From the IMG/VR virus record IMGVR_UViG_3300042261_000762, positions 1-64,000 of that record: 64,000 bases of DNA; one strand, given 5' to 3'. Position 1 is the stretch's first letter; each line of letters opens with the position of its first letter. The notes below the pieces were generated by a model, which saw nothing but the letters and a program-made list of their open reading frames with translations, did no database searches and was not told the origin of the DNA. Shown piece by piece: positions 2,735 through 62,737 of the stretch. The translations under genes and the position numbers were made by a program. The DNA comes from a virus.

Positions 2735-3511
2735 ATGGATGACTTAACAAAAGAAATTGCGAAATGGCTTATCCAAAGCTATCCTCTTCTACTTACTATC
2801 GTTGGATTTGTAATTATCTTTCTTTATATAATAAAAGAAGTGAAAATAATATTTTTCATGAAAGGAACTGAAGATGAAACTTTTGGTAAGAAAATATTAA
2901 AATTTCTAATGTTCTGGAGAAATTGGAAAAAAGGAAACACTACAGAACCAAAGAATGTTCATTACACAGACGAAGAAAGAGAAAGAGTCGTGAATAAACT
3001 TTTGATTCATAATTTGTTTATAGCAATAAATAATATGAAAACACAAATTCCATCTATGGAATTCGGTTATCAACGTAAAAGTGAAGTTTTAAGAAGTATA
3101 ATAAAAACTTACATAGAAACAATAGAAAAGTATGCTAATCACGTATTAAAAAGTAATAAATTAGACGAATTAACTACTAATCAACTGAACGAGTTGTTGA
3201 TTGGTGAAATAGATAGAGCTCACTACGAGATTTATAGTAAAATGAAAACAAATCTTGGTGATGCTTTATATCAAAAGATAATAGAGGATCCAGTAAAAGG
3301 ATTTAAGGTTAGAAATAATATATTTAGAGAAGTTTTCGTTAATGGAATACTTTTAATATCTTCACAGGCTATGTCAGTTTATAATTATGATAATTATGAA
3401 AGAGCATCTGAGATATTAACATCTATGTATATTTCTTTACAAGTAATAGTAAGAAATTTCGAAAAAGTGTTTAAGGATTATAACGGTGAATTAGATAAAT
3501 ATTTATTATAA
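2735..3511 (+). CDS. Membrane-anchored protein of unknown function
   Basis: A 258-residue protein with one strong N-terminal transmembrane helix (about residues 15-35, LLLTIVGFVIIFLYIIKEV) and a long, charged, mostly helical cytoplasmic part. There is no signal-peptidase site and no catalytic motif. It stands alone on the plus strand after a phage-type promoter. Confidence 0.75.
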   Translation: MDDLTKEIAKWLIQSYPLLLTIVGFVIIFLYIIKEVKIIFFMKGTEDETFGKKILKFLMFWRNWKKGNTTEPKNVHYTDEERERVVNKLLIHNLFIAINNMKTQIPSMEFGYQRKSEVLRSIIKTYIETIEKYANHVLKSNKLDELTTNQLNELLIGEIDRAHYEIYSKMKTNLGDALYQKIIEDPVKGFKVRNNIFREVFVNGILLISSQAMSVYNYDNYERASEILTSMYISLQVIVRNFEKVFKDYNGELDKYLL

Positions 3512-3563
3512 TAAATTTAAACTTTAAAAAAAACAATTCAAAATTATAAGTATAAATCAAATT

Positions 3564-3734
3564 ATGAAATTATACGATAAACTAAAAGAATGTGACGCGG
3601 TAGAAGATTACAAAGACTACGCCGAATTAATATGGATGAAAGCCATAAAAATTAATGGTGTACATGTTGATAATCCAAATCACGAAATCACAGAAAATGA
3701 TAAAGACATTACAGTAGGTATATTAAGCCTTTAA
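3564..3734 (+). CDS. Small acidic protein (56 aa)
   Basis: ATG to TAA frame encoding MKLYDKLKECDAVEDYKDYA at its start; very acidic and soluble. Codon use resembles the neighbours. The reading frame ends inside a long inverted repeat that probably terminates transcription. Unknown function. Confidence 0.55.
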   Translation: MKLYDKLKECDAVEDYKDYAELIWMKAIKINGVHVDNPNHEITENDKDITVGILSL

Positions 3735-3749
3735 ACGTAATGTCTTTAT
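3702..3749 (+). terminator. Long inverted repeat / terminator
   Basis: AAAGACATTAC and GTAATGTCTTT form an 11-bp perfect stem around a 24-base loop, followed by ATTATT. It separates converging genes and may stop both. Confidence 0.5.
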
Positions 3750-3781
3750 TATTGAACCTTACTTATATAAGTAGCGGTATA

Positions 3782-4093
3782 TTATCCTATTTCATCAGCT
3801 GGTTTTTGAACACCAGCATTTTTTTTGACCTCTGCCACAGCTCCCTCACCATTAGAATTACCATTATTAACAGTTCCATTAGTAGTTGTAGTTGGAAATT
3901 CTAATTTCTTCTTTTCTAAAGCAGCGGATTGCCATGTTTTTAATCCCAATAGACCGGCAGCAATAGAACTAGAAAATATAAATATATTTGGGTCATTGTT
4001 TAGAAAAGCAAAAAGAGCACCTGTCATAAATATAATATAACCTAATAATTTTGAAGCTGTAAAATACAAAGCGAATGATATATATGATTTCAT
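3782..4093 (-). CDS. Small two-helix membrane protein
   Basis: A 103-residue protein with two hydrophobic helices (about residues 9-28 and 33-50) and a low-complexity hydrophilic tail rich in Asn, Gly, Thr and Ala. Small size and two helices suit a holin-like or other phage membrane protein, but nothing proves this. Confidence 0.65.
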   Translation of the reverse strand: MKSYISFALYFTASKLLGYIIFMTGALFAFLNNDPNIFIFSSSIAAGLLGLKTWQSAALEKKKLEFPTTTTNGTVNNGNSNGEGAVAEVKKNAGVQKPADEIG

Positions 4094-4110
4094 AGTTGTG
4101 TTATTATTTT

Positions 4111-4980
4111 TTAGATTTTATCATAATTCGGATTGTCCGACTTGAAATCTCTTCCACTGGTGGAAAAGTCTTCAATTTCTTTCGTTGTTCTTGGATCTGA
4201 TTGTTGATATAACGGATCATTTATATTTTCTGTTTGGACTCTATCTCTCAACTTTTGCATATCGTGAATATAAGATTGCCAATAAACACGTTTAATATTT
4301 TCAAACTCTTCATTATAACATTCCACATTATCTGTATCTACAGTCCAAACCGGGAGATATCCTCTAACAGTTAAAGCAAATTTTATGAATTTATTTTTAT
4401 CACTTTGAAAATCTCCTTCTGTTGGAATTTCAATATTTTTATCATCTGGTAAAAGTAAAATTAAATCTATTTTTATACCAAAATAATCCATATTGAAGAA
4501 ATAATAATTAAAGAATAAATACATTATTTTTTCAGAACATAACCACACATCTCTTACATTATCTAAAAATATTTCAATATCAAAATTCATTTGCATAGGA
4601 ATAGCTTTAACTTTAGTTATAACTCTTTTCCATTCCTCTTTTATTCTACAATCTTTTGGTATATAAATATTAGGATTTGCAAATTCATCGCTCACAGAAT
4701 TAAAAGAAGTTAGTGTAATTATTCCTCTTGGTCTTATATCAGTATTTAGCTCTACTCTATTATCAACTATATCATCAAGATAAGAATCAAGTAAAAAACG
4801 TTCTTGTCCAAACATCCTATAAGAAAATGGAACAGTAATACATCTTTTCTCATCTTTGAAATAATTTATCCATCTAATTGATTTATTCAGTGTTCTACCT
4901 AAGGCTACTGTAACCATTCTAAAATAGACATTATCGTAGTTGAATTGTTCACCGATATTTCTAATTGTTTCACCAGGCAT
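4111..4980 (-). CDS. gp15-like tail sheath stabiliser/completion protein
   Basis: A 289-residue protein whose layout follows T4 gp15 (272 aa), which caps the contractile tail and joins it to the neck. Shared features include an early YFRMVTVALGR/ITVPFSYRMFGQERF region (T4: IRVPITYASKEHFM), a central PMQMNFDIEIFLDNVRDVW (T4: PIKMIYELSIFTRYEDDM) and a late FALTVRGYLPVW (T4: SLTFEVNGWMYPP). I compared from memory without an alignment. It implies a contractile-tailed virus. Confidence 0.65.
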   Translation of the reverse strand: MPGETIRNIGEQFNYDNVYFRMVTVALGRTLNKSIRWINYFKDEKRCITVPFSYRMFGQERFLLDSYLDDIVDNRVELNTDIRPRGIITLTSFNSVSDEFANPNIYIPKDCRIKEEWKRVITKVKAIPMQMNFDIEIFLDNVRDVWLCSEKIMYLFFNYYFFNMDYFGIKIDLILLLPDDKNIEIPTEGDFQSDKNKFIKFALTVRGYLPVWTVDTDNVECYNEEFENIKRVYWQSYIHDMQKLRDRVQTENINDPLYQQSDPRTTKEIEDFSTSGRDFKSDNPNYDKI

Positions 4981-5031
4981 GTGTTGTCTTTTTTATTTAT
5001 ATATTAATTTTGCTTTCATCAAAAAATAGCG

Positions 5032-5039
5032 TAATTTTG
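5032..5039 (+). promoter_or_regulatory. Host-type promoter core TAATTTTG
   Basis: TAnnTTTG is the Bacteroidota -7 element. It lies about 40 bases before the muramidase-like gene. Confidence 0.5.
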
Positions 5040-5077
5040 TATTTTAAACTTATAAGGTTAAATAAGATATATAAAAT

Positions 5078-5953
5078 ATGATGCGAAATTCAAGAATTTT
5101 ACATTATCTATTGAAAGATAAGAAAAACTACCATAGAGACAAAGAATTATCCCAACAGTGGGATGTGTATCTTTATCTATTACATCAAGTAAGACAGTTA
5201 AGTTGGCAACTCATTAGAAAAAAATTTATATACTTTATAAAATATAAAAAACTTTATCTAACAAGAGTTCTTTTGATTCTATCAATATTTTTTGGAAGTG
5301 CATATTTTTCAATAAAATGGTTAGTAGATCACAATCCATTTTTCGAAGTAAAAAGAATAGCGAAAATAGCAACAGTAGATACGCTATATTGTCCAGATAC
5401 AATTCCATTAAACACCTACATAATTAGAACCGCACATATTGCGGAAACAACTCCTGAAAAAATACAGAAGAAAGTATCCTTTATAGTGTTTTATACAGAA
5501 GATAGTACCAAAACAGTAAAGAAATTTCTTGAAAGATTAGGAGAAATAGAATCAAGAAATGATTATAAATCCAGAAGAGTTGGATCTCAATATCTTGGAA
5601 GATGGCAAATGGGAGATGCTGCGAGAAAAGTTGTGGGTTTTGGTAATATAAGTTACGATAAATTTTTAAATACACCCGAATTACAAGATGCTGCTGTTAT
5701 TCTTTTATTAAAGTATAACTATGCTTATATGAAACCATATTTGAATAGATATAATAATAGAATAATAAGAGGGTATCACTTAACTACAAGCGGTATGTTA
5801 GCGATGGCACATAATGTTGGTGCTGATGAAGTTATCAAATTTTTGAATAGTAATTGTTCTTATGTCCCAAGAGATGGAAATGGTCCAGCAGATAGGTTTT
5901 TAATTTTGGGTAATTATAATATGAAAAGTATAACAAATGAAGAAGAGAAATGA
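5078..5953 (+). CDS. Membrane-anchored muramidase / lytic transglycosylase-like protein
   Basis: A 291-residue protein. A basic N-terminal region (about 60 residues) is followed by one transmembrane helix (about residues 66-88, YLTRVLLILSIFFGSAYFSI) and a periplasmic or virion-internal domain. LGEIESRNDY followed by YLGRWQMG resembles the catalytic-Glu helix and glycine-rich segment of SLT/lysozyme-fold enzymes, with a late MLAMAHNVGADEV segment. It could open peptidoglycan during entry or lysis. The start ATGATG is the first in frame. Confidence 0.6.
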   Translation: MMRNSRILHYLLKDKKNYHRDKELSQQWDVYLYLLHQVRQLSWQLIRKKFIYFIKYKKLYLTRVLLILSIFFGSAYFSIKWLVDHNPFFEVKRIAKIATVDTLYCPDTIPLNTYIIRTAHIAETTPEKIQKKVSFIVFYTEDSTKTVKKFLERLGEIESRNDYKSRRVGSQYLGRWQMGDAARKVVGFGNISYDKFLNTPELQDAAVILLLKYNYAYMKPYLNRYNNRIIRGYHLTTSGMLAMAHNVGADEVIKFLNSNCSYVPRDGNGPADRFLILGNYNMKSITNEEEK

Positions 5954-6399
5954 AACTAGATAAATGGCACGTTAATGAAAGTAATTTTACACATGATTCT
6001 ATAATGGATAGATTCTATTTTCTTGATAATAGTATTCAAAAATATTTTGAAGATAATTCTGTGGAAAATTTACATAAAGTCAGAATATACCTTAGAAGAT
6101 TAAGATTTACTATGGAAGTTTTTAGTGTTTATTTTAAGGAAAACGAAAATTATAAAAACTTTTATAAAAAGGTCAGTAAACTGCAAGATACGACAGGAAA
6201 AGCAAGAGATTTAGATGTTATTCAAGAATATGCAGTACAAAAAGGAATTGATGATTCTATAGTTAAAGAAGATAAAGAAGTATTATACTCTGAAGTTAGG
6301 GGGAAAATTGAAAAGTTCTTTAATTCAAAATCTTACGAAAAATTTAAAAAGATTACTGATTATAAAGAATTTCAAATAGAAAAATTCTTAAATTACTAA
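5950..6399 (+). CDS. CHAD-domain protein
   Basis: A 149-residue helical protein overlapping the preceding stop by four bases (ATGA), so translationally coupled. ENLHKVRIYLRRLRFTMEVF (residues about 39-58), and then KARDLDVIQEY, match the CHAD domain: a His in the first helix, basic RxxLRRLR and the RDLDV signature. CHAD domains bind inorganic polyphosphate. A PPK2 polyphosphate kinase lies at the right edge of the window. The domain is shorter than most CHAD proteins (about 200-300 aa). Confidence 0.7.
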   Translation: MKLDKWHVNESNFTHDSIMDRFYFLDNSIQKYFEDNSVENLHKVRIYLRRLRFTMEVFSVYFKENENYKNFYKKVSKLQDTTGKARDLDVIQEYAVQKGIDDSIVKEDKEVLYSEVRGKIEKFFNSKSYEKFKKITDYKEFQIEKFLNY

Positions 6400-10085: not shown

Positions 10086-10157
10086 ATGATAAAAATATTA
10101 ATAATAGGATTTATAATTTATTTCTTATTCTTTAGAAATAAAAATGGAAAAAATTGA
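10086..10157 (+). CDS. Possible tiny hydrophobic peptide (23 aa)
   Basis: ATG frame MIKILIIGFIIYFLFF followed by a basic tail; one membrane helix. It lies between the host-type and phage-type promoters and may be only a transcribed spacer. Confidence 0.3.
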   Translation: MIKILIIGFIIYFLFFRNKNGKN

Positions 10158-10226: not shown

Positions 10227-10322
10227 ATGACTTACACCAGTAAACATAGTAAACATTCATCCTTTAGCTCAAAGTGGTTTACCACATTCGGGGTTGAAAC
10301 GGAATTGCTATGTGTAAGCTGA
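10227..10322 (+). CDS. Leader peptide 1 (Ser/Lys/His/Phe/Trp attenuator)
   Basis: A 31-codon ORF. Residues 5-18 are SKHSKHSSFSSKWF: every residue is Ser, Lys, His, Phe or Trp, exactly the amino acids whose tRNAs and synthetases (TrpRS, HisRS) are encoded downstream. Codons used include AGT, AGC, TCA, TCC, AAA, AAG, CAT, TTT and TGG. Codons 21-23 (TTC GGG GTT) form RNA segment 1 of the attenuator. Stalling upstream would free segment 1. Confidence 0.8.
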   Translation: MTYTSKHSKHSSFSSKWFTTFGVETELLCVS

Positions 10323-10375
10323 TAATAACATAGTATAACGGAAAACCCCGAACTCAAAAAGTTTGGGGTTTTTTA
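10287..10375 (+). promoter_or_regulatory. Attenuator 1 (segments 1-2-3)
   Basis: Segment 1 TTCGGGGTT is fully complementary to segment 2 AACCCCGAA (9 bp, antiterminator). Segment 2 also pairs with segment 3 AGTTTGGGGTT to form the terminator. The two foldings exclude each other. Confidence 0.8.
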
Positions 10376-24060: not shown

Positions 24061-24098
24061 ATGGAAAAAATACAATATTTTTATAAAATATATAAACA
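24061..24098 (+). promoter_or_regulatory. Phage-type promoter of leader 2
   Basis: ATGGAAAAAATACAATATTT followed by TTATAAAATATATAAAC; aligned with the promoters of leaders 1, 3 and 4, but the TTGACA part has decayed to ATACAA. Confidence 0.5.
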
Positions 24099-24126: not shown

Positions 24127-24204
24127 ATGAATAACATTTTACATAACAACTTACTGAACCTATTACTCCTCTTGGGGATAATTGGATTGGGTGTGTTATG
24201 CTAA
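24127..24204 (+). CDS. Leader peptide 2 (leucine attenuator)
   Basis: A 25-codon ORF with ten Leu codons; residues 9-16 are LLNLLLLL. Codons TTA, CTG, CTA, CTC and TTG are all used, matching the Leu tRNAs GAG, TAG, CAA and TAA encoded downstream with LeuRS. GGA TTG GGT near its end is RNA segment 1. An in-frame ATG 22 codons upstream could extend it. It parallels the leucine operon leader of enterobacteria. Confidence 0.85.
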   Translation: MNNILHNNLLNLLLLLGIIGLGVLC

Positions 24205-24260
24205 ATGAAGAATTTATCGCAGTAAAGCACTAACCCAATCCTTAAAAGATTGGGTTTTTT
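24184..24260 (+). promoter_or_regulatory. Attenuator 2 (segments 1-2-3)
   Basis: Segment 1 GGATTGGGT is fully complementary to segment 2 ACCCAATCC; segment 2 also pairs with segment 3 GATTGGGTT. The structures are mutually exclusive. Confidence 0.85.
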
Positions 24261-27026: not shown

Positions 27027-27035
27027 AAGGATCCA

Positions 27036-27164
27036 ATCCTTGATCGAAGGTCAGCACCGATGGACGCTCCTATCCAGAGCAGCGGTAAGCAGGACTGACA
27101 TGTAGATATAGTGACGTGAGGGCGAAAGAACCCGACTATTCCAACTGGAAAATTGGACAAGGAT
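27036..27164 (+). ncRNA. Structured RNA upstream of tRNA-Leu(TAA)
   Basis: Closing helix ATCCTTG/CAAGGAT with inner pairs GTCAG...CTGAC and GGGC-GAAAGAA-CCCG. Shares CCTATCC and AACTGGAA with the RNA at 48036. No ORF. Confidence 0.45.
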
Positions 27165-27170
27165 ATATAT

Positions 27171-27383: not shown

Positions 27384-27671
27384 ATGAGCAAGAAAGCTAA
27401 ACTTAAGAACAGGGAAAAACGTTTACAGGAAAAACGTTCTCGTAAAGCCGCCAATAAAGCAAGATATGCTGAATTGAGAAGGCTGGGAATCAATAGTAAA
27501 TCTAAAAGATTCCAGAAAAAGAAGAGATCAGTTATTTTAGGGGATCACCCTTTTGGTAACTGTGGAAATATTGGATGTAAAAAGTGTTTTCCTGACCTTT
27601 ATCAAATAGGAGTTGAATATAAGGTGAAAATAAAACAAGTTATATCTCCCATCAAACGATGGGAGATATAA
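27384..27671 (+). CDS. Very basic protein with C-x-x-C zinc-knuckle-like motif (95 aa)
   Basis: The N-terminal half is Lys/Arg-rich and helical (KAKLKNREKRLQEKRSRKAA), and the middle carries HPFGNCGNIGCKKCFP, a likely zinc knuckle. Charge and size suit an RNA- or ribosome-binding protein. The untranslated region contains ACCATAGGTC, which also precedes the bL12 gene. I do not recognise a family. Confidence 0.75.
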   Translation: MSKKAKLKNREKRLQEKRSRKAANKARYAELRRLGINSKSKRFQKKKRSVILGDHPFGNCGNIGCKKCFPDLYQIGVEYKVKIKQVISPIKRWEI

Positions 27672-27803: not shown

Positions 27804-27872
27804 ATGAAAAACATGGTTTATAATATTAATGATTGTATTTATAATGATAAGCGTAAAATGCTGATTGGATGA
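27804..27872 (+). CDS. Leader peptide 3 (Asn/Tyr/Ile/Asp/Cys attenuator)
   Basis: A 22-codon ORF whose residues 6-16 are YNINDCIYNDK. These are exactly the amino acids of downstream tRNA cluster 3: Tyr(GTA), Asn(GTT), Ile(GAT), Asp(GTC), Cys(GCA) and Lys. The last codons CTG ATT GGA plus stop form RNA segment 1 of the attenuator. The start is the first ATG after the phage-type promoter. Confidence 0.8.
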   Translation: MKNMVYNINDCIYNDKRKMLIG

Positions 27873-27918
27873 ACTATGTTTGAAGAAGACACGTAACCCC
27901 AATCAGAAAAGATTGGGG
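27861..27918 (+). promoter_or_regulatory. Attenuator 3 (segments 1-2-3)
   Basis: Segment 1 CTGATTGG pairs with segment 2 CCAATCAG (8 bp); segment 2 (CCCCAATC) alternatively pairs with segment 3 GATTGGGG. Confidence 0.8.
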
Positions 27919-29744: not shown

Positions 29745-30660
29745 ATTGACTTTGTTTGGGAAGTTTCTCACCTTCGGGTGGGTAAAGAATAATACATCGC
29801 AAGGTGTAAAAGAGAGGGATGGTCACATACCTCTACCACAATCCTTCGGGAAAGTGGCTCAACCAAACAAGCATCGTCCTACCGTAGCCAACTACGGTCT
29901 TCGATCACCAGTCGGAGATAGGATGTAAGAACGGAACTGGTCCTTTGGAAAGGATAAGTGAGGTAAGCCCCCAGCCGCAAGGTTGGGTAAGGAGCCTCAC
30001 TAATTAGGGAGTGACGCCCCGCCGCCAGTTGGTCAACCGTTCGTTGTCGGAAGGGATAAGGTGTAGTTAATCTGTTCGAGCATACCAACGCAAGGGCTAA
30101 TTAACAGTTCAATAGGTGAAAGGTTTTGAAACTGTAAAAGGGGAATGAACCTGGAGTCTAGAAGAATCGCACAGTAAGGCTAGTAACCTGAAACGTATGT
30201 GTGTGTAGTGCATTTTGTACCTCAAAAGGGTATAGACCACATGAGTGGGCACCACGCGGTGACAAACAGCAAATTTGCTCAGCTGGTAGAGCAATTCTCT
30301 CTTAAAGAATAGGTCGTTGGTTCAAATCCAACATTTGTTTAAAGGAAAGTCCCACTCAACGGTAAGCTGAAAGACGTTTAATTCTTGGCACCGCAAGGTG
30401 AACCAAGAACTCGGAAGGTCCCAAGCTGGAAGAGTTTAGTTGAAAGATGCACCTAATGGTTTAGCGACCATGAACTGCTCGCAAGGCAGGGGGTAATCAG
30501 ATAGCTGAATAGGTTTATCGGTAAAAGTTGAGCCACCAACTCAAAAAGGGCAACGTTGTCGGTAAACAGTCTTGGTGACTGTGGACAAGTTGAGAACCTC
30601 AGAATGGGAATTTTGAGGATAATGCAACAAAGGTATCGACGTCAAGGATGTAGTCTCAGT
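29745..30660 (+). ncRNA. Large ornate RNA (GOLLD/ROOL-type candidate) with embedded tRNA
   Basis: About 900 bases without an ORF, rich in stable hairpins: CACC-TTCG-GGTG, ATCC-TTCG-GGAA, CCAGCC-GCAA-GGTTGG, CACC-GCAA-GGTG, GTGAGG/CCTCAC, GTTAAT/ATTAAC and a domain-closing TTGTTTGG/CCAAACAA. Giant phage RNAs of the GOLLD and ROOL classes have this size, lie among phage tRNAs, and GOLLD examples can contain a tRNA. A tRNA-Lys sits in the middle here. I cannot test the class consensus without a covariance search. Confidence 0.65.
30268..30340 (+). tRNA. tRNA-Lys(CTT) embedded in the large RNA
   Basis: Complete cloverleaf: acceptor AGCAAAT/ATTTGTT, anticodon stem ATTCT/AGAAT with loop CTCTTAA, T arm GTTGG-TTCAAAT-CCAAC. 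Confidence 0.92.
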
Positions 30661-30671
30661 CCTTTATATAT

Positions 30672-33272: not shown

Positions 33273-35300
33273 ATGAATATAAAAAACAGAAATATAGGAA
33301 TAGTCGCTCATATAGATGCAGGTAAAACTACACTAACTGAGAGAATATTATATTATACTGGTCAAAATCATAAAATGGGCGAGGTACATGATGGTAATAC
33401 TGTCACTGATTTCCTTCCACAGGAACAAGAACGAGGTATTACTATCATGGCTGCTGCCGTTACTACATATTGGAATGACCATAAAATTAATATAATAGAT
33501 ACTCCAGGACACATAGATTTTACTGGCGAAGTAGAACGTTCCCTTAGAGTGTTAGATGGCGCTGTTGTTGTATTCTGTGGAGTTGGTGGTGTGCAACCAC
33601 AATCAGAAACAGTTTGGCGTCAAGCTAATAGATACAAGGTGCCGAGAATAGCGTTTGTTAATAAGATGGATAGAACTGGTGCTGATTTTTTCAATGTAGT
33701 GAATCAAATAGAAAATAGACTCAAATCAAAACCTGTTATAATTCAATTACCCGTTGGTAGTGAAGATAACTTTAAGGGTATTATTGATTTAGTAAATATG
33801 AAATACATTACTTGGAAATCAGAAACTTTAGGTGAGGAATATGAAATTTCCGAAATACCACAAGAATATCTAGATAAAGCTATTTATTATAATGAACAAA
33901 TACTAGAATCTATTTGTGAGCATAACGATGATTTTATGCACAAATACTTAGAATCAGTAGAATTAATAACAAAAGAAGAAATATTAAAAAATCTTAGAGA
34001 TTTAACAATAAATTTTAAGATAGTTCCAGTGTTGTGTGGAACAGCTAAGAAAAATAAAGGAGTACAAACTCTCCTTGATGCTATTGTAGATCTTTTGCCT
34101 TCTCCTAAAGATAGGAATTATATCAAAGCTAAAAAAGAAGGAGAAGATATAGAATTAAGAACAGAAGACGATGAGGTTTTATCTGCTATTGTTTTTAAGA
34201 TAATGACAGATAAAAATGCAGGCAAATTATCTATGATAAGATTATATTCTGGAACACTTAAAGCCGGACAAACAATTTACAATGCTAGAACAGGAAAAGC
34301 CGAAAGAGTATCTAGAATATTTACAATTCAAGCTAATAAAAAGACTGATGTTAAATCAGTTGACGCCGGTGATATTTGTGCAATAGTTGGAGTTAAAGAT
34401 ATATGGACTGGCGATACTTTATGTGAAGATAAGAAAACATTCGAATTAGAAAACATAACTAACGCCAAACCAGTTATATCCATAACTGTTGAGCCTTTGA
34501 CAAATAAAGATACAGATAAATTAAGTTTTGCTTTACAGAAACTATCAGAAGAAGATCCTACTTTCTCAATAAAAGTTGATGAAAATGGACAAACTGTAAT
34601 AAGTGGAATGGGCGAACTTTATCTTGATGTTATATTGAGCAGAATGATAACCGAATTTGGAGTTGAATGTAATACAGGACAACCAAAAGTTTCATATAGA
34701 GAGAATATAACAAAACCAGTTACTCACAGAGAAAGATTATCAAGACAAACAGGCGGTAAAGGTATGTTTGCCGAGATTGAGTATAAAATAGAACCTGTTT
34801 CAGATGAAACAAAAGGATTATCTTTCGAATGGGCAGTTAAAGGCGGCAATGTTCCAAGAGAATATATGTCAACCATAGAAAAATCTTTCAAAGATTGTAT
34901 GGTTAGTGGACCATTAGCTGGTAATGAAATAGAAAGTTTAAAAGTTACTATACTCGATGGAATGACGCACCCTGTAGATTCTAGTCCTTTGGCATTTGAG
35001 ACTTGTGTGAAAATATCATTTCCAAAAGCATACATGAAAGGTGAACCTACTTTATTTGAACCTATAATGGATGAAGAAGTATCAACTCCCGAGGAATATT
35101 TGAGTGATATAATAGGAGAAATGAATAGACGTAGATCACAAGTGATGTCTATAAACACTTTACCAGATTCTACAATATTACTTAGAGCCAAATCGCCATT
35201 GTCTGAAAAATTTGGATTTATAACTACACTTAGAACTTTATCTCAAGGTAGGGCGTCTAATAATTTAACATTTTCACATTATGAAAGGGTAGAAATATGA
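33273..35300 (+). CDS. fusA: Translation elongation factor G
   Basis: A 675-residue EF-G, slightly shorter than the bacterial protein (about 700). G1 [10 protein letters not shown], switch [13 protein letters not shown]3 [13 protein letters not shown]4 NKMDR; domains II-V follow, including [20 protein letters not shown] and a terminal [15 protein letters not shown]. It drives translocation and could work with phage bL12. The RNA ligase gene overlaps its stop by four bases. Confidence 0.97.
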
Positions 35301-45598: not shown

Positions 45599-45624
45599 TA
45601 GTACAAATTAAGAAATGGAAAAAA

Positions 45625-45650
45625 TTGACATTTTTTGGTTAATATATAAC
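45625..45650 (+). promoter_or_regulatory. Phage-type promoter of leader 4
   Basis: TTGACA, 14-base spacer, TATAAC; same block as leaders 1 and 3. Confidence 0.65.
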
Positions 45651-45671
45651 AAAGTATAAAAATTAAATATT

Positions 45672-45752
45672 ATGAACTTTCGAATAGAGAATATGATACA
45701 AGAACAGATGCAACAGATGGATAATCTGATTGGATGGACTATATCGTATTGA
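45672..45752 (+). CDS. Leader peptide 4 (Glu/Met/Gln/Ile-AUA attenuator)
   Basis: A 26-codon ORF; residues 5-16 are IENMIQEQMQQM. Codons ATA, GAG, ATG, CAA, GAA and CAG match the downstream tRNAs Ile(TAT), Glu(CTC/TTC), Met(CAT) and Gln(TTG/CTG). The Ile codons here are all ATA before the pairing segment, whereas leader 3 uses ATT and precedes Ile(GAT). CTG ATT GG in codons 19-21 is RNA segment 1. Confidence 0.8.
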   Translation: MNFRIENMIQEQMQQMDNLIGWTISY

Positions 45753-45800
45753 CAAAGTTCTAGATGATATAAACAAAACCCAATCAGAAAACTGATTGGG
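45726..45800 (+). promoter_or_regulatory. Attenuator 4 (segments 1-2-3)
   Basis: Segment 1 CTGATTGG pairs with segment 2 CCAATCAG; segment 2 also pairs with segment 3 CTGATTGGG to make the terminator. Confidence 0.85.
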
Positions 45801-45812
45801 TTTTTTGTTTTT
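45779..45812 (+). terminator. Intrinsic terminator of attenuator 4
   Basis: CCCAATCAG/CTGATTGGG stem, loop AAAA, then TTTTTTGTTTTTT, eight bases before tRNA-Glu. Confidence 0.88.
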
Positions 45813-45820
45813 TGACATAT

Positions 45821-45891
45821 GCTCCTATCGTCTAAAGGAAGGATTCGACTTTTTCACAGTCGGGATGCGGTCTCGGGATCCGCTGGGAGTA
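45821..45891 (+). tRNA. tRNA-Glu(TTC) with atypical T loop
   Basis: Acceptor GCTCCTA/TGGGAGT, anticodon stem CGACT/AGTCG with loop TTTTCAC. The T arm GCGG/CCGC has a 9-base loop TCTCGGGAT. Confidence 0.8.
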
Positions 45892-45901
45892 CAAAAGATT
45901 A

Positions 45902-45931: not shown

Positions 45932-46054
45932 GGGAGGTAGTGTAATGGCTAGCACGACGTAATTCAACAAAAGTATTTTGACAAAAATATTTACAGCAAA
46001 TCAAAAGAAGAGGCATCATAAGCCGTATGTGGATGTTCGAATCATCCCCTCCCA
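45932..46054 (+). tRNA. Interrupted tRNA-Met(CAT)-like gene
   Basis: 5-prime half GGGAGGT with D arm GTG/CAC; about 50 bases of AT-rich insert containing TTACAGCAAATCAAAA; then GGC-ATCATAA-GCC (CAT) and T arm GGATG-TTCGAAT-CATCC ending CCTCCC. The acceptor ends pair (GGGAGG/CCTCCC), so the gene is interrupted between D and anticodon arms. Confidence 0.5.
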
Positions 46055-46136: not shown

Positions 46137-46218
46137 AGCAACGTGCCGGAGTGGTCTATCGGGGATGTCTCATAAGCATCTGGCTTTGCCTTCGTGGGTT
46201 CAAACCCCACCGTTGCTA
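46137..46218 (+). tRNA. tRNA with CAT anticodon and long variable arm
   Basis: Acceptor AGCAACG/CGTTGCT, anticodon loop CTCATAA, variable arm of about 13 bases, T arm GTGGG-TTCAAAC-CCCAC. Could be elongator Met or Ile2 (lysidine). The 80 bases before it hold hairpins AATGGA/TCCATT and GTCTG/CAGAC. Confidence 0.8.
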
Positions 46219-46223
46219 CACAT

Positions 46224-46320: not shown

Positions 46321-46393
46321 GGCCTCCTAGTGTAATGGTTGAGCATTTCTCCCTTTGAAGGAGCGGGTATTGGTTCGAATCCAGTGGGGGCTG
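46321..46393 (+). tRNA. tRNA-Gln(TTG)
   Basis: Acceptor GGCCTCC/GGGGGCT (wobble), anticodon stem CTCC/GGAG with loop CTTTGAA. Confidence 0.88.
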
Positions 46394-46399
46394 CCAAAT

Positions 46400-46470
46400 T
46401 GTTCTTTGGTGTAACGGGAGCATAAGTGACTCTGAATCACTCAGTCCTGGTTCGAATCCAGGAAGAACAA
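46400..46470 (+). tRNA. tRNA-Gln(CTG)
   Basis: Acceptor TGTTCTT/AAGAACA, anticodon stem AGTGA/TCACT with loop CTCTGAA. Confidence 0.9.
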
Positions 46471-46493
46471 CAACAAAAATAGGAGATAAAAAT

Positions 46494-47020: not shown

Positions 47021-47034
47021 TGTATTGATCATTA

Positions 47035-47099
47035 GCGCAATTGGTAGAGCGTTGGGTTTTGGTCCCAAAGGTTGGAGGTTCGAACCCTCCATGATCAAC
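47035..47099 (+). tRNA. tRNA-Gln(TTG), second gene
   Basis: Acceptor TTGATCA/TGATCAA, anticodon stem TTGGG/CCCAA with loop TTTTGGT, T arm GGAGG-TTCGAAC-CCTCC; followed by CCA, possibly encoded 3-prime end. Confidence 0.87.
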
Positions 47100-47113
47100 C
47101 AAAGTTTTTTATT

Positions 47114-47717: not shown

Positions 47718-47791
47718 GGCGGGGTAGAGCAGAAGAAGCTCGTCGGGCTCATAATCCGAAGGTCGTGGTTGAGCATTTCCCACCCCCGCAA
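47718..47791 (+). tRNA. tRNA-Met(CAT), initiator-like, atypical T arm
   Basis: Anticodon stem CGGG/TCCG with loop CTCATAA and an fMet-like body. Acceptor GCGGGG/CCCCGC with a 1:72 mismatch. The T region GTGG-TTGAGCATTTC-CCAC departs from the TTCNANN loop. Confidence 0.7.
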
Positions 47792-47796
47792 CACAT

Positions 47797-47871
47797 CGCG
47801 GGATGGAGCAGAGGTAGCTCGCAAGGCTCATAACCTTGAGGCCGAGGGTTCGATCCCCTCTCCCGCAACCA
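47797..47871 (+). tRNA. Initiator tRNA-fMet(CAT) with encoded CCA
   Basis: Acceptor CGCGGGA/TCCCGCA with the C1:A72 mismatch of bacterial initiators, anticodon stem CAAGG/CCTTG with loop CTCATAA, 3-prime ACCA encoded. Confidence 0.9.
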
Positions 47872-47874
47872 AAT

Positions 47875-47947
47875 GGTCTCGTAGCTCAGGGGTGAGAGCA
47901 GGAAGCTTATACCTTCAAGGTCGGTGGTTCAATTCCATCCGGGACTA
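47875..47947 (+). tRNA. tRNA-Ile(TAT)
   Basis: Acceptor GGTCTCG/CGGGACT, anticodon stem GAAG/CTTC with loop CTTATAC. A TAT anticodon reads AUA directly, without lysidine. Confidence 0.88.
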
Positions 47948-47957
47948 CAAATAAAAC

Positions 47958-48031
47958 TGGAGTGTAACTCAGTTGGTTAGAGTTCGAAGCTTATACCTTC
48001 GCGGTCGGGGGTTCAAGTCCCTCCACTCCAA
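47958..48031 (+). tRNA. tRNA-Ile(TAT), second gene
   Basis: Acceptor TGGAGTG/CACTCCA, anticodon stem CGAAG/CTTCG with loop CTTATAC. Confidence 0.9.
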
Positions 48032-48035
48032 CAAT

Positions 48036-48155
48036 AGATAGTAAACCAGCTTCCCTATTCGCGACGGTGCCTATCCTACAAGGCCGGAACCATTAGCACC
48101 CGAGGGAACAATTAAGGTGGGAAGGGCGAGTCTCCCAATCTAACTGGAACTATCT
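48036..48155 (+). ncRNA. Structured RNA after tRNA-Ile
   Basis: Closing helix AGATAGT/ACTATCT; inner GGTGCC...GGAACC-like arm and GGGA...TCCC pairs; shares CCTATCC and AACTGGAA with the RNA at 27036. Confidence 0.45.
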
Positions 48156-48191
48156 TAAATTTTAATAAATAAATCAAAAAAACAACTAAAT

Positions 48192-48989: not shown

Positions 48990-49064
48990 GCTCCTGTCGT
49001 CTAATCGGTTAGGACATCGCCCTTTCACGGCGAAGATTTGCGGGTTCGAGTCCCGTCGGGAGTA
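48990..49064 (+). tRNA. tRNA-Glu(TTC)
   Basis: Acceptor GCTCCTG/CGGGAGT, anticodon stem CGCC/GGCG with loop CTTTCAC, T arm GCGGG-TTCGAGT-CCCGT. Confidence 0.94.
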
Positions 49065-49077
49065 CAAAAAATTTACC

Positions 49078-49148
49078 GCCCTATCGACTAACAGGCTAGG
49101 TCACCGCTCTCTCACAGCGGAAATTCGGAATCGTACTCCGATAGGGTG
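49078..49148 (+). tRNA. tRNA-Glu(CTC)
   Basis: Acceptor GCCCTAT/ATAGGGT, anticodon stem CCGCT/AGCGG with loop CTCTCAC. T arm TCGGA/TCCGA with loop ATCGTAC. Confidence 0.87.
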
Positions 49149-49149
49149 A

Positions 49150-49262
49150 CTCCTTTCAATATTAAAGATATAGTAGATTTTGCACATTTAAGTTTTCTTG
49201 CAATATCTATTTTTTTAGACCCATCTTTGTATCTATTTTATCCCACACTTTTTTATCCATAG
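49150..49262 (-). pseudogene. HNH-endonuclease HTH remnant
   Basis: On the minus strand MDKKVWDKIDTKMGLKK stops at an A run; the shifted frame gives RYKDGSKKIDIARKLKCAKS then TISLILKG, the C-terminal helix-turn-helix of HNH homing enzymes. The nuclease core is absent. It lies directly after tRNA-Glu(CTC). Between here and the next gene is AT-rich spacer. Confidence 0.5.
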
Positions 49263-59009: not shown

Positions 59010-59426
59010 TTGATAACGAAATTCAAAATATTTGAAAATAACACATTTAGTTTTAAGTTGGATGATATTCTATCACGAAATAGAATGCAAACAAATAGTG
59101 AAGCTGATCCTTACGGTGAAGAAGATTGGAATAATATTAATGAGGATTCTATAAAAAAAGAATTGATGGGAATAGTTTTAAATAGACACGTCGAGTTTAG
59201 AACTTTATCATCAGAAGGACCTTTATATAATAAAAAAGTTATCAAGGGTGTTGTTAAAGATGTTATTGTCAAATGGATACCCCATCATCTTGAATATTGG
59301 ATACTTTTTTTAATTAATGGTAAAAATCATTATGTTTATCCTAATTTAGATATAAAAGTTAAAGAAAATTTAATGGAACACATAGATATAGATCCTTATG
59401 GAGAAGAAAAATGGGATGAAGAATGA
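59010..59426 (+). CDS. Targeting-sequence protein with two DPYGEE motifs (138 aa)
   Basis: TTG start directly after the previous stop: MITKFKIFENNTFSFKL. Motifs ADPYGEEDWNN (about residue 32) and the C-terminal IDPYGEEKWDEE bracket one beta-rich module. Its stop overlaps the next start by four bases. Confidence 0.8.
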   Translation: MITKFKIFENNTFSFKLDDILSRNRMQTNSEADPYGEEDWNNINEDSIKKELMGIVLNRHVEFRTLSSEGPLYNKKVIKGVVKDVIVKWIPHHLEYWILFLINGKNHYVYPNLDIKVKENLMEHIDIDPYGEEKWDEE

Positions 59427-62400
59427 TAAAGAAATTTAAAATATTTAAGATAAATGAAGGAATGTCATTAAATGACATAATATCCAAAGCTGAGAACAAA
59501 GGATACGGTGGAGATATTAGATATATCAAAAAAGATCTAGAGAATAATTTTCTTAATAAAAGAGTCAGAATATATAAAAAAGGCAAACCTTATGTAGAAA
59601 TAGATGTGGGAGCAATAGTTCGCGAAGGATTCACTTTTTATTTTGAGGCGTTGGAAGTTTTAGATATGGGAAATCGCGGCATGTATTGGAATTCTTATTC
59701 AGAAGCTGAGAAAAATACAATGATTGGTTTAGTAAAAGGACAAGATACTATTTTTATAAGAATAGACAGCGACGATGATATAGATATTATTGGTGAAGCG
59801 GATATTAAAAAGATAACAAGAAAGAAAGAACAGAGAAAATTAAGAGAATTAAAAAAAGACGTAGATCCTTATGGTGAAGAAGATTGGGGAGAAGACACTA
59901 ATAAAGTAATATCTAAATATGATATAAATAGCCCAGATGGACAAGAAAATTTATACAAAAAAGGCGAGGAATATGAAATCGAAACAAACGCAATACACGG
60001 TGATCTTATTGGAGTAAAAACAGAATTGTCATTTGGACAAAAATATGTTCATTATTTTAGAAGAGAAGACTTCAATGATTATTTTGATAGAATAACAGAA
60101 TCAATTGAAAATTTAGATCCTTATGGCGAAGAAAATTGGAATGATGATGAATCTCAGCTTTTTTTGGATTCAATTACTCGATACTTAGATATAAATGCAA
60201 AAATACATAATATTAAAGATAAATGGTATATTTATTTTGAAAAAGATGATGAATTTTATAAAATATGCAACAATGACGCTGGAAAAATACTTTTATATAA
60301 TCGCACAAATCATCATTCAATTGAATTAGTTGATAATGATATAGGTACAAAATTCGATTGGCTAAATATTAGATTAGCTATGCAAAAATTAGAACATAAA
60401 AAATCCTATGCAAAATTTCAAAATGAAAAAAGAGATTATAAAGACGTTGATCCTTATGGTGAAGAAATTTGGGCTGAAGAAGATGAATATAATTGGATTT
60501 ATATTAATGATCCATATGCTGAAGATGCTAATCCAACATTGAATTTATTAGAGCAACAAATAGGTAAATTTATTGTATTTAAGATTGATTGGACAAATGA
60601 ATATAAAGAAGGAGTTTTACAATCTGTTATGATTAATGTGCTTGGAGAAATAGAATTGGAGGTTGATAATCATTTTTATCTATTAGACGAAAGAGAAAGA
60701 ATAGGAGTAGCAAAGGAAAATATAATAACGGAACAGTATGATGAACAAGATCCATATGGTGAGGAAATTTGGAATGAAGATCCAAAATTTCAAATAGGAG
60801 ATAGAGTAGAATTTGCAAAAGATCCACCCAATAGATCATATTATTATCTGATTGAAGAATTTTTCCCGGATGATCGATCGTATAGATTGAGCATACACGA
60901 TAAAAATACCAATGAAAGATTTCCTGGTCATGTTTTGATAGATGAATTTAATTTAAAATTAGAAAATATAAAGGAAGAATTCAAGTGGAGAAATAAAAAC
61001 TATATTTATTATACTCAAACATTTATGGATAATAATAAAGTCAATAGAATAATGGAAAAAATTAGTCCTGAATGGATTACTAATAATCCTGTGGCTTTTG
61101 AAACATACAATAATAAATTATACTTAACTGAGGGACATCATAGATTTGAGGCTTGTTTAAGAAAGAATGATAAAAATTTATTAGAAACTTTATTTAAAAC
61201 TGCTTTATATTATCCAGTGAAAAGAGAACCTAGAAAATTTAAGAAAAAATATATTCCTGAAGATATTAAAATGATAAAAGAAAATAAAGAAATAACAGAC
61301 GAAAAGATAAAAGCAACCATTGATTTTATTTCTAAAACAATAAAAGGCACTGAATGGGAAGGTAAAGTTTATATGGCTGGCGGCGGCGTTAGAGACGAAC
61401 TCATGGGCAGAACTTCAAAAGATATAGATTTACTTATTAATGTACCAGACGGCGGAATAAACTTTGCTATATGGTTTACAAAGAAATTGAAAATATACAG
61501 AGAAGATAAAAATCCTGTTATCTATCCAAGATTTGGAACCGCTAAATTTACTCTAAGAAAACAAAAACATAACGGATTAGATTTATCAGGAATTGATATT
61601 GAATGTGTTATGCCAAGAAAAGAAACTTATACTGAAGGAAGTAGAGATCCAGAGGTAAGTCAAGGCACACTTAAAGATGATGTCGATAGGAGAGATTTTA
61701 CAGTTAATAGTTTGTTGAAAGATTTATCTACTGGGGAAATTCTAGACTTAACAGGAATGGGTAAAGAAGATATTAAAAGGGGAATAGTGAGAACTTCACT
61801 TAATCCTGATGTTATTTTTACTGAAGATCCTTTAAGAATGTTAAGAGCTATAAGATTCACAGTTAAATGTGATTGGGATTTACCTTTATTTATGATTAGA
61901 GCCTTAAAGAAGAACGCAAAACAACTTCAAATAATATCTTCAGAGAGAGTTCAAGATGAATTGAACAAAATGTTATTAACAGGTCATCCTGATAAGGCTA
62001 TAAGATTACTTCAGATAACGGGGTTGAGTAAATATATTTTCCCTGAACTTGATAAACTTATAAAAATGAAACAAAACAAGCATCATAAATATGATGCTAT
62101 GCGTCATTCTTTAGAAGTATTAAAGAATACTCCTCCAGATCTTGTAACAAGATTGTCTGCTTTATTACACGATATAGGTAAAAGTAAAACAAGAGAAATA
62201 ATTGATAATGAAGTTCATTTTTATGAGCATGAAAGGATTGGCGCATTTATGGTAAGGGATATATTAAAAAGGTTGAGATATCCAAAAGAAATAATAAATG
62301 CTGTTGTTATTGCAGTTGAAAATCACATGAAAACAAAACAGTCTGGAGATAAGGGAGATTTAAGTGATAGATCTTTAAGAAAATTGAAACAAGATTTGGG

Positions 62401-62737
62401 TCCACATCTTCAACAAACATTAGATTTAATTCACGCTGATAATATATCACATTCAGAAGAATCTAACATGCCAAATCAAGTAACTAATATCTTAAAAAGA
62501 TTTGCTGATTTGGAAGAAAGAGATAAACAAAAACAAAAACCAAATCCTTTAACTGGCAGCGAAGTAATGAAAATACTTGATATTAAAGAAGGACCAAAGG
62601 GTCCAGAAGATTCTAAAATGCGTCCTATTGTAGGAAAAATATTAAGATTATTGGGCGATATGTATTTAGATGACCCACATATGAGTAAAGAAGAATTAAC
62701 TGAAATAGTCAAAAAATCATACGAAGAATATAAATGA
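59423..62737 (+). CDS. cca: Giant modular protein: targeting sequence, DPYGEE modules, ParB-like segment and CCA-adding enzyme
   Basis: An 1104-residue fusion. MIKKFKIFKINEG is targeting-like. Modules separated by VDPYGEEDW (~148), LDPYGEENW (~232), VDPYGEEIW (~346), NDPYAED (~370) and QDPYGEEIW (~444) fill the first half. LTEGHHRFEACLRK (~575) resembles a ParB-type motif. From ~650, YMAGGGVRDELMGRTSKDID plus DFTVNSLL and EDPLRMLRAIRF are class II tRNA nucleotidyltransferase motifs, then an HD domain (LSALLHDIGKSK). It probably adds or repairs tRNA 3-prime CCA. Confidence 0.88.
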   Translation: MIKKFKIFKINEGMSLNDIISKAENKGYGGDIRYIKKDLENNFLNKRVRIYKKGKPYVEIDVGAIVREGFTFYFEALEVLDMGNRGMYWNSYSEAEKNTMIGLVKGQDTIFIRIDSDDDIDIIGEADIKKITRKKEQRKLRELKKDVDPYGEEDWGEDTNKVISKYDINSPDGQENLYKKGEEYEIETNAIHGDLIGVKTELSFGQKYVHYFRREDFNDYFDRITESIENLDPYGEENWNDDESQLFLDSITRYLDINAKIHNIKDKWYIYFEKDDEFYKICNNDAGKILLYNRTNHHSIELVDNDIGTKFDWLNIRLAMQKLEHKKSYAKFQNEKRDYKDVDPYGEEIWAEEDEYNWIYINDPYAEDANPTLNLLEQQIGKFIVFKIDWTNEYKEGVLQSVMINVLGEIELEVDNHFYLLDERERIGVAKENIITEQYDEQDPYGEEIWNEDPKFQIGDRVEFAKDPPNRSYYYLIEEFFPDDRSYRLSIHDKNTNERFPGHVLIDEFNLKLENIKEEFKWRNKNYIYYTQTFMDNNKVNRIMEKISPEWITNNPVAFETYNNKLYLTEGHHRFEACLRKNDKNLLETLFKTALYYPVKREPRKFKKKYIPEDIKMIKENKEITDEKIKATIDFISKTIKGTEWEGKVYMAGGGVRDELMGRTSKDIDLLINVPDGGINFAIWFTKKLKIYREDKNPVIYPRFGTAKFTLRKQKHNGLDLSGIDIECVMPRKETYTEGSRDPEVSQGTLKDDVDRRDFTVNSLLKDLSTGEILDLTGMGKEDIKRGIVRTSLNPDVIFTEDPLRMLRAIRFTVKCDWDLPLFMIRALKKNAKQLQIISSERVQDELNKMLLTGHPDKAIRLLQITGLSKYIFPELDKLIKMKQNKHHKYDAMRHSLEVLKNTPPDLVTRLSALLHDIGKSKTREIIDNEVHFYEHERIGAFMVRDILKRLRYPKEIINAVVIAVENHMKTKQSGDKGDLSDRSLRKLKQDLGPHLQQTLDLIHADNISHSEESNMPNQVTNILKRFADLEERDKQKQKPNPLTGSEVMKILDIKEGPKGPEDSKMRPIVGKILRLLGDMYLDDPHMSKEELTEIVKKSYEEYK

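Follow-up and report, generated by a model that had tools for sequence, protein, structure and literature searches.

Codon-matched leader reading frames and predicted attenuators ahead of the tRNA operons of huge phages

The tRNA gene clusters of a group of huge phages are preceded by a short open reading frame (ORF), spelled in codons that the cluster's own tRNAs read, and by a terminator. The leader from which this analysis started, leader 4, lies in a window of 64 kb out of a 104-kb IMG/VR virus record, and its codon match is part of this larger pattern. On the sequence comparisons given below, leader 4 is very probably a ribosome-mediated transcription attenuator of a phage tRNA operon, with the supply of the operon's own tRNAs as its signal, and the phage would probably make a tRNA set only when ribosomes lack exactly those tRNAs. 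If true, the reach of leader-peptide attenuation would extend to viruses, with tRNA genes among its targets, and would include natural attenuators with isoacceptor-level codon choice.

Leaders and their match to the downstream tRNAs

The 40 tRNA genes that ARAGORN called in the window form four main groups, each of which is headed by a short ORF and, after it, a strong intrinsic terminator (Table 1). The putative promoter-like element that the four leaders have in common occurs in its strict form only at positions 10147, 27760 and 45618 of the window, with a variant at 24065; similar elements are found ahead of leaders in the window's closest known relative, the 735-kb uncultured phage LR756501.

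Table 1. Coordinates of leaders, regulatory elements and tRNA genes (window positions unless a locus is named)
Feature	Location	Strand	Remarks
Promoter-like element GAAAAAATTGACATTTTTTGGTTAATATATA	45618..45648	+	Putative, from sequence; common to the window's four leaders
Leader 4 ORF MNFRIENMIQEQMQQMDNLIGWTISY	45672..45752	+	26 codons and TGA (45750-45752)
Regulatory core IENMIQEQMQQM	45684..45719	+	Codons cognate to the downstream tRNAs
Antiterminator arm TCTGATTGG	45725..45733	+	Within the ORF; can pair with the terminator 5' arm
Stem of start region with stop region, around the core	45667..45770	+	MFE/centroid fold; predicted default, anti-antiterminator-like
Intrinsic terminator	45779..45812	+	Hairpin at 45779-45800, then T tract: CCCAATCAG-AAAA-CTGATTGGG-TTTTTTG
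tRNA-Glu(TTC)	45821..45892	+	ARAGORN
Candidate tRNA (CAT) with insert	45934..46054	+	Read from sequence; no ARAGORN or Rfam call
tRNA (CAT), long variable region	46137..46219	+	ARAGORN call Met(CAT)
tRNA-Gln(TTG) and tRNA-Gln(CTG)	46321..46471	+	ARAGORN
tRNA-Gln(TTG)	47026..47101	+	ARAGORN
tRNA-like gene and tRNA-Met(CAT)	47718..47871	+	47718-47791 (Rfam) and 47797-47871
Two tRNA-Ile(TAT)	47875-47948, 47958-48032	+	ARAGORN
tRNA-Glu(TTC) and tRNA-Glu(CTC)	48990..49150	+	ARAGORN
Leader 1 MTYTSKHSKHSSFSSKWFTT... and terminator	10227..10368	+	Before Trp/His/Phe/Lys/Ser tRNAs; terminator 10346
Leader 2 MNNILHNNLLNLLLLLGIIG... and terminator	24127..24254	+	Before Leu tRNAs; terminator 24234
Leader 3 MKNMVYNINDCIYNDKRKMLIG and terminator	27804..27918	+	ORF 27804-27872; before Ile(GAT)/Cys/Asp/Asn/Lys/Tyr/Val tRNAs; terminator 27897
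Tandem-pair examples	L023 1959-3045; L021 1949-2787; L031(-) 3395-5983
Further long-variable-region tRNAs	L009 29856-29946; L020 2662-2748; L021 2162-2247; L023 3132-3216
CTA-anticodon tRNA loci	L018 2586-2739 (LR756501 690585-690737); L115; L119

Leader 4 reads ATG AAC TTT CGA ATA GAG AAT ATG ATA CAA GAA CAG ATG and continues CAA CAG ATG GAT AAT CTG ATT GGA TGG ACT ATA TCG TAT TGA; its start and reading frame are kept in LR756501 (L009:27295). The core consists of ATA GAG AAT ATG ATA CAA GAA CAG ATG CAA CAG ATG, and tRNAs of the leader's own cluster decode 11 of 16 core codons, against an average of 8% for the other clusters of the genome. Isoleucine is encoded by ATA at codons 5 and 9 of the core, by ATT at codon 20 within the antiterminator arm and by ATA at codon 24 beyond it. 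Since the arm TCTGATTGG repeats the terminator 3' arm, it is able to pair with the 5' arm CCAATCAGA instead, in a predicted 9-bp helix of -14.1 kcal/mol that none of 200 shuffles matched.

A sequence-only reading of the window had described leader 4 as the attenuator leader of a tRNA operon whose tRNAs it matches. It had noted ATA as the core isoleucine codon ahead of two Ile(TAT) tRNAs, ATT alone in leader 3 ahead of Ile(GAT) tRNAs, and Gln CAA/CAG, Glu GAA/GAG and Met ATG codons that match Gln, Glu and CAT tRNAs. The ARAGORN calls bear out each of these pairings, with two Ile(GAT) tRNAs after leader 3 and none in the leader-4 cluster, and the proposal of an attenuator is strongly supported by the permutation, coverage, folding and spacing results described below. 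The candidate CAT tRNA of the leader-4 cluster, the halves of which are split by an insert of tens of bases, has a similarly split counterpart in LR756501 (L009 ~27551-27643), and these genes are possibly intron-bearing or permuted tRNAs.

All four leaders have counterparts in LR756501 (MLQTSKHSKHFSSSSKWFTTFG, MNNILHINLLNSLCLLGIKLIG, MKNMVRKYNDYCINDKLKMLIG and MNFRIINMIQEQMQQIQNLIGGTISY for leaders 1 to 4, respectively), and that phage carries a fifth leader, rich in P/A/V/R/G/T, ahead of an Arg/Thr/Val/Ala/Gly/Pro cluster. The same leader design, with other tRNA groupings, recurs in distant huge phages of 642, 634 and 636 kb (MoxR ATPase ~42% identical), where MTTSFQQQQQQQINRTD lies ahead of four Gln tRNAs, MKTKKQQYKQYQPQYK ahead of Tyr/Gln/Lys tRNAs, MKAMILSLCLSLSLSLQK ahead of Leu/Ser/Cys tRNAs and MKTIAMIIRMRIIRPKMLG ahead of Arg(tct)/Ile(gat)/Met tRNAs. 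The leader peptides are wholly different between clusters, and their composition tracks the tRNAs. In Al-Shayeb et al. 2020, genomes above 634 kb belong to the Mahaphage clade, with predicted Bacteroidetes hosts; that study, which covers the same 634, 636, 642 and 735 kb genomes, reports up to 67 tRNAs per genome (PMC7162821).

In order to quantify the match, 28 leaders of 16-42 codons were curated by eye from five huge-phage genomes (the window and the 735, 642, 634 and 636 kb genomes), with start and frame kept between sister phages; the w and s leaders form homologous sets, as do the b and c leaders, and the leaders are therefore not all independent. Their own clusters read 263 of 530 core codons. 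Reassigning the clusters at random to the leaders within each genome gave a mean of 85.9 (sd 20.0), and the observed value was never reached in 200,000 permutations. The true assignment was the unique best permutation in each genome (1/24, 1/120, 1/5040, 1/5040 and 1/120). Likewise, 95 of 96 cluster amino acids were found in the core of their own leader (permuted mean 45.5, sd 6.4).

Because these leaders were curated by eye, an ORF picker that scored antiterminator pairing only, and was blind to codon match, served as the control for selection bias. Among 42 further IMG/VR loci obtained with a five-sequence MoxR ATPase profile, the picker recovered 24 leaders, which include repeats from copies of a single phage, and one more was spotted by eye; several tRNA clusters on these contigs yielded no leader. 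Unlike the profile, a single-protein MoxR ATPase query of IMG/VR returned no relatives, and neither did scanning that database for the terminator/arm pair or the shared upstream motif as patterns.

Seven tandem pairs of attenuators were found in LR756502, LR745206 and LR756504. The upstream leaders contain 24 codons specific to the next operon; the downstream leaders contain six specific to the previous operon, five of which are AAA in two Arg/Ser leaders. A TATATA element is missing from the second leaders of the Gln pairs. These features would fit an arrangement in which the first attenuator must be passed in order to reach the second.

Arm geometry, RNA folding and proposed mechanism

In every curated leader the arm is complementary to the 5' arm of its own terminator, with predicted pairing energies of -10 to -26 kcal/mol, and the arm sequences vary between operons and phages (GATTGG, TTCGGGG, GCTTGGG, GGGTGTATA). 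In most leaders, 0 to 22 of 200 shuffles equalled the pairing of the leader's own arm. The median was -14.7 kcal/mol where a tRNA follows within 450 nt and -6.9 kcal/mol for terminators elsewhere in the loci, to which arms of this kind do not belong.

The match between codon and cluster depends on distance from the arm. It was 79-82% at four to six codons upstream of the antiterminator helix and 54% at three, then fell to 32% at two codons, 11% at one and 19% within or after the helix. A ribosome with its A site no more than ~12 nt from the arm would cover the arm, and folding of the RNA ahead of the ribosome gave an antiterminator probability of ~1 for stalls in the core and 0 at the stop codon. 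The peak followed by a collapse near the arm fits ribosome-mediated transcription attenuation and, as evidence that does not depend on the permutation test, suggests that the sensor is a stalling ribosome. Chance ORFs were rejected as an explanation on the permutation match, the amino-acid coverage and the position relative to the arm.

From these features we infer how the system would operate, from promoter use and leader translation through stalling and antitermination to the physiological signal. Transcription would begin upstream, and a ribosome would translate the leader ORF behind the polymerase. With ample charged tRNAs for AUA, GAR, CAR and AUG, the ribosome would cross the arm to the stop codon and cover it, the terminator would form and the tRNA genes would be left untranscribed. 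If any of those tRNAs is scarce, the ribosome would stall in the core before its leading edge reaches the arm, TCTGATTGG would pair with CCAATCAGA, no terminator would form and the operon would be transcribed. With a separate leader for each operon, spelled in the codons of its own tRNAs and, for Ile and Arg, at the isoacceptor level, the outcome would be separate negative-feedback loops, one per tRNA set. In leaders w1, s1, c5 and d1 the stop codon lies 23-25 nt beyond the arm, too far for a ribosome halted there to cover the arm directly.

The RNA from 45655 to 45812 is predicted to fold at -41.6 kcal/mol (z = -6.4 relative to dinucleotide shuffles) into the terminator and a stem that joins the start and stop regions of the ORF. 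The start:stop pairing of leader 4 is better than that of swapped and shuffled sequences (z -2.8), which is not so for all leaders: the stem is good in w3, w4, s4, c1 and d5 and missing in others. A universal start:stop stem was accordingly rejected, and the stem is not counted as a defining part of the design.

When truncated RNAs were folded without a ribosome, the antiterminator formed in most leaders (mean 0.81), so that the off state would need translation, unlike in trp; a start:stop stem convincing enough to prevent this is present in some leaders only. The same prediction is compatible with a sensor that answers mainly a global translation block or an early destruction of host tRNAs, with all leaders switched on together and codon specificity secondary. 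Such a sensor would suit the known tRNA-cleaving host defences: phage tRNAs are argued to counter defences that deplete or cleave tRNAs (PMC10264068) and to evade retrons (PMC11555353). We nevertheless think a mainly global response unlikely, as it would require neither tRNAs sorted by amino acid nor a separate leader for each operon, and the untranslated state is predicted to be off in leaders b1, b3, c1 and d5.

Under feedback control of each operon by its own tRNAs, the replacement of tRNAs lost to host defences would be one attractive use of the operon; simple homeostasis would work too. For decades it has been debated whether phage tRNA genes compensate for codon usage or replace tRNAs that the host has destroyed. 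If the operons are feedback-controlled per tRNA group, the phage itself declares which shortages are expected, and the leaders would be ready-made sensors of tRNA supply during infection. We lean towards a broader picture for this subgroup of Bacteroidetes-infecting huge phages, in which operons sorted by amino acid and isoacceptor are each induced by the loss of exactly their tRNAs, attenuators are nested such that the codons of every operon further downstream appear in an upstream leader, and the whole forms a network that replenishes tRNAs with codon resolution and could respond when host tRNAs are depleted during infection.

Codon choice at the isoacceptor level

The sequence-only reading had placed the matching at the level of codon and anticodon. 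The window alone offers two ATA against two ATT codons, which is weak evidence, and relatives were therefore needed. Core AUA accounts for 13/17 Ile codons ahead of Ile(TAT)-only clusters in the curated set and 15/20 with the new relatives, against 1/9 and 1/12 ahead of Ile(GAT)-only clusters (one-sided Fisher P = 0.002 and 0.0003; since the w/s and b/c leaders are homologous, independent cases are fewer than codon counts and the P values in this section should be read accordingly). Genome-wide, AUA makes up 40-55% of Ile codons. Own clusters decode 21/26 Ile codons, where 12.8 are expected (P = 0.0009). For Arg, leaders of CGN-only clusters contain 8 CGN and 2 AGR codons and those of AGR-only clusters 0 and 13 (P = 0.00009), with CGN at 8-19% of Arg codons genome-wide. 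Both exceptions are AGA codons of leader d1, and the operon that follows d1 in tandem encodes Arg(tct).

Ser codons were not separated by anticodon (6/26 decoded, 5.8 expected), and no codon-level separation was found for Leu, Val, Gly, Pro or Lys, mostly with few informative codons; for Ala it was marginal (P = 0.02). Among orthologous leaders, the LR756501 sister of leader 4 keeps both ATA codons and adds ATT to the core (ATA ATT .. ATA .. ATT, with ATT at codons 6 and 16); the ATT at codon 16 sits 9 nt from the arm, too close for a stall there to be expected to expose the arm. To this extent ATA and ATT are interchanged between orthologues, which counts in part against the codon-level claim. 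The Ile separation is thus a strong tendency and not a law. The comparison across leaders supports a match to anticodon class for Ile and Arg as a strong bias, which upholds the codon-level claim statistically for these two amino acids but neither as a strict rule nor for Ser.

Classic attenuators sense amino acids, and the leaders might instead respond to general amino-acid starvation, with the Ile and Arg codon choice incidental or tuned for sensitivity; in theory, selective charging makes some synonymous codons more sensitive than others (PMC1183508). The behavior of Ser and the mixture of ATT and ATA in the sister of leader 4 are in keeping with such an account. We regard it as distinctly unlikely, because the AUA and CGN:AGR splits follow the downstream anticodon and not one common rule, both depart from genome usage, and the genes regulated are tRNA genes. 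That the terminators, which are also present elsewhere in these genomes, are ordinary insulators or upstream 3' ends and the short ORFs chance or small functional peptides is very improbable, since this leaves unexplained the codon matching, the arm complementarity, the position relative to the arm and peptides that differ completely between clusters while tracking the tRNAs.

Relation to known systems and other features of the tRNA regions

The leaders resemble the trp, his, thr, leu and ilv attenuators of E. coli in having a short ORF rich in codons for what the operon supplies and a predicted antiterminator that excludes an intrinsic terminator; the proposed logic of stalling or run-through is that of the trp/his type (PMC1183508). 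A short ORF, cognate codons, a terminator before the first gene and a mutually exclusive predicted antiterminator are all found. In contrast to the trp/his type, the leaders precede tRNA genes and not genes for biosynthesis, transport or aminoacyl-tRNA synthetases, and we therefore class them as a variant and not as plain members. Further differences are that the phage leaders are phage-encoded, can cover as many as six or seven amino acids at once, follow the isoacceptor in their codons, have the arm mostly within the ORF and can be stacked, with an upstream leader also listing the codons of the downstream operon.

T-box riboswitches bind uncharged tRNA directly, without translation. They are similar to the leaders in sensing tRNA charging and controlling transcription termination; no T-box (RF00230) match was found in the window at the Rfam gathering threshold. 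The arrays of T4, T5, mycobacteriophages, Lak and other huge phages likewise comprise large tRNA sets, some of which are linked to tRNA-targeting defences (PMC10264068, PMC11555353). Lak-A1 and LR756508 were considered as possible members and rejected: their tRNAs (33 and 28, respectively, by Rfam) lie dispersed, without grouping by amino acid, and the blind search gave no leaders.

The open literature yielded no earlier case of leader-peptide attenuation that acts on tRNA genes or occurs in phages, a statement that is provisional since subscription journals were not covered. The main text of Al-Shayeb et al. 2020 (PMC7162821) does not contain attenuat-, leader or terminator, and that of Naville and Gautheret 2010 (PMC2965389) contains neither 'tRNA gene' nor 'phage'. 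The 'attenuator' of E. coli glyVXY (PMC10950094) was rejected as a precedent, as it is a 3' terminator.

Several other features of the tRNA regions were observed. A GOLLD RNA lies within tRNA cluster 3 of the window (30199-30662), with a tRNA-Lys(CTT) called inside it, and GOLLD is also present near tRNAs in LR756502 and LR745206. A long variable region is normally confined to Leu, Ser and Tyr tRNAs; here it occurs in several Met/CAT, Lys, Glu and Gln tRNAs (82-91 nt genes). CTA-anticodon tRNAs, of the amber suppressor type, were found in LR756501, Lak-A1 and LR756508. Two GC-richer, structured-looking stretches between tRNA genes of the window (27035-27170 and 48036-48160) have no Rfam match and are candidate noncoding RNAs. 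Lastly, an elongation factor G-like protein and a tRNA nucleotidyltransferase domain are encoded at 33273-35300 and 59423-62737 of the window, so the phage has translation parts besides tRNAs.
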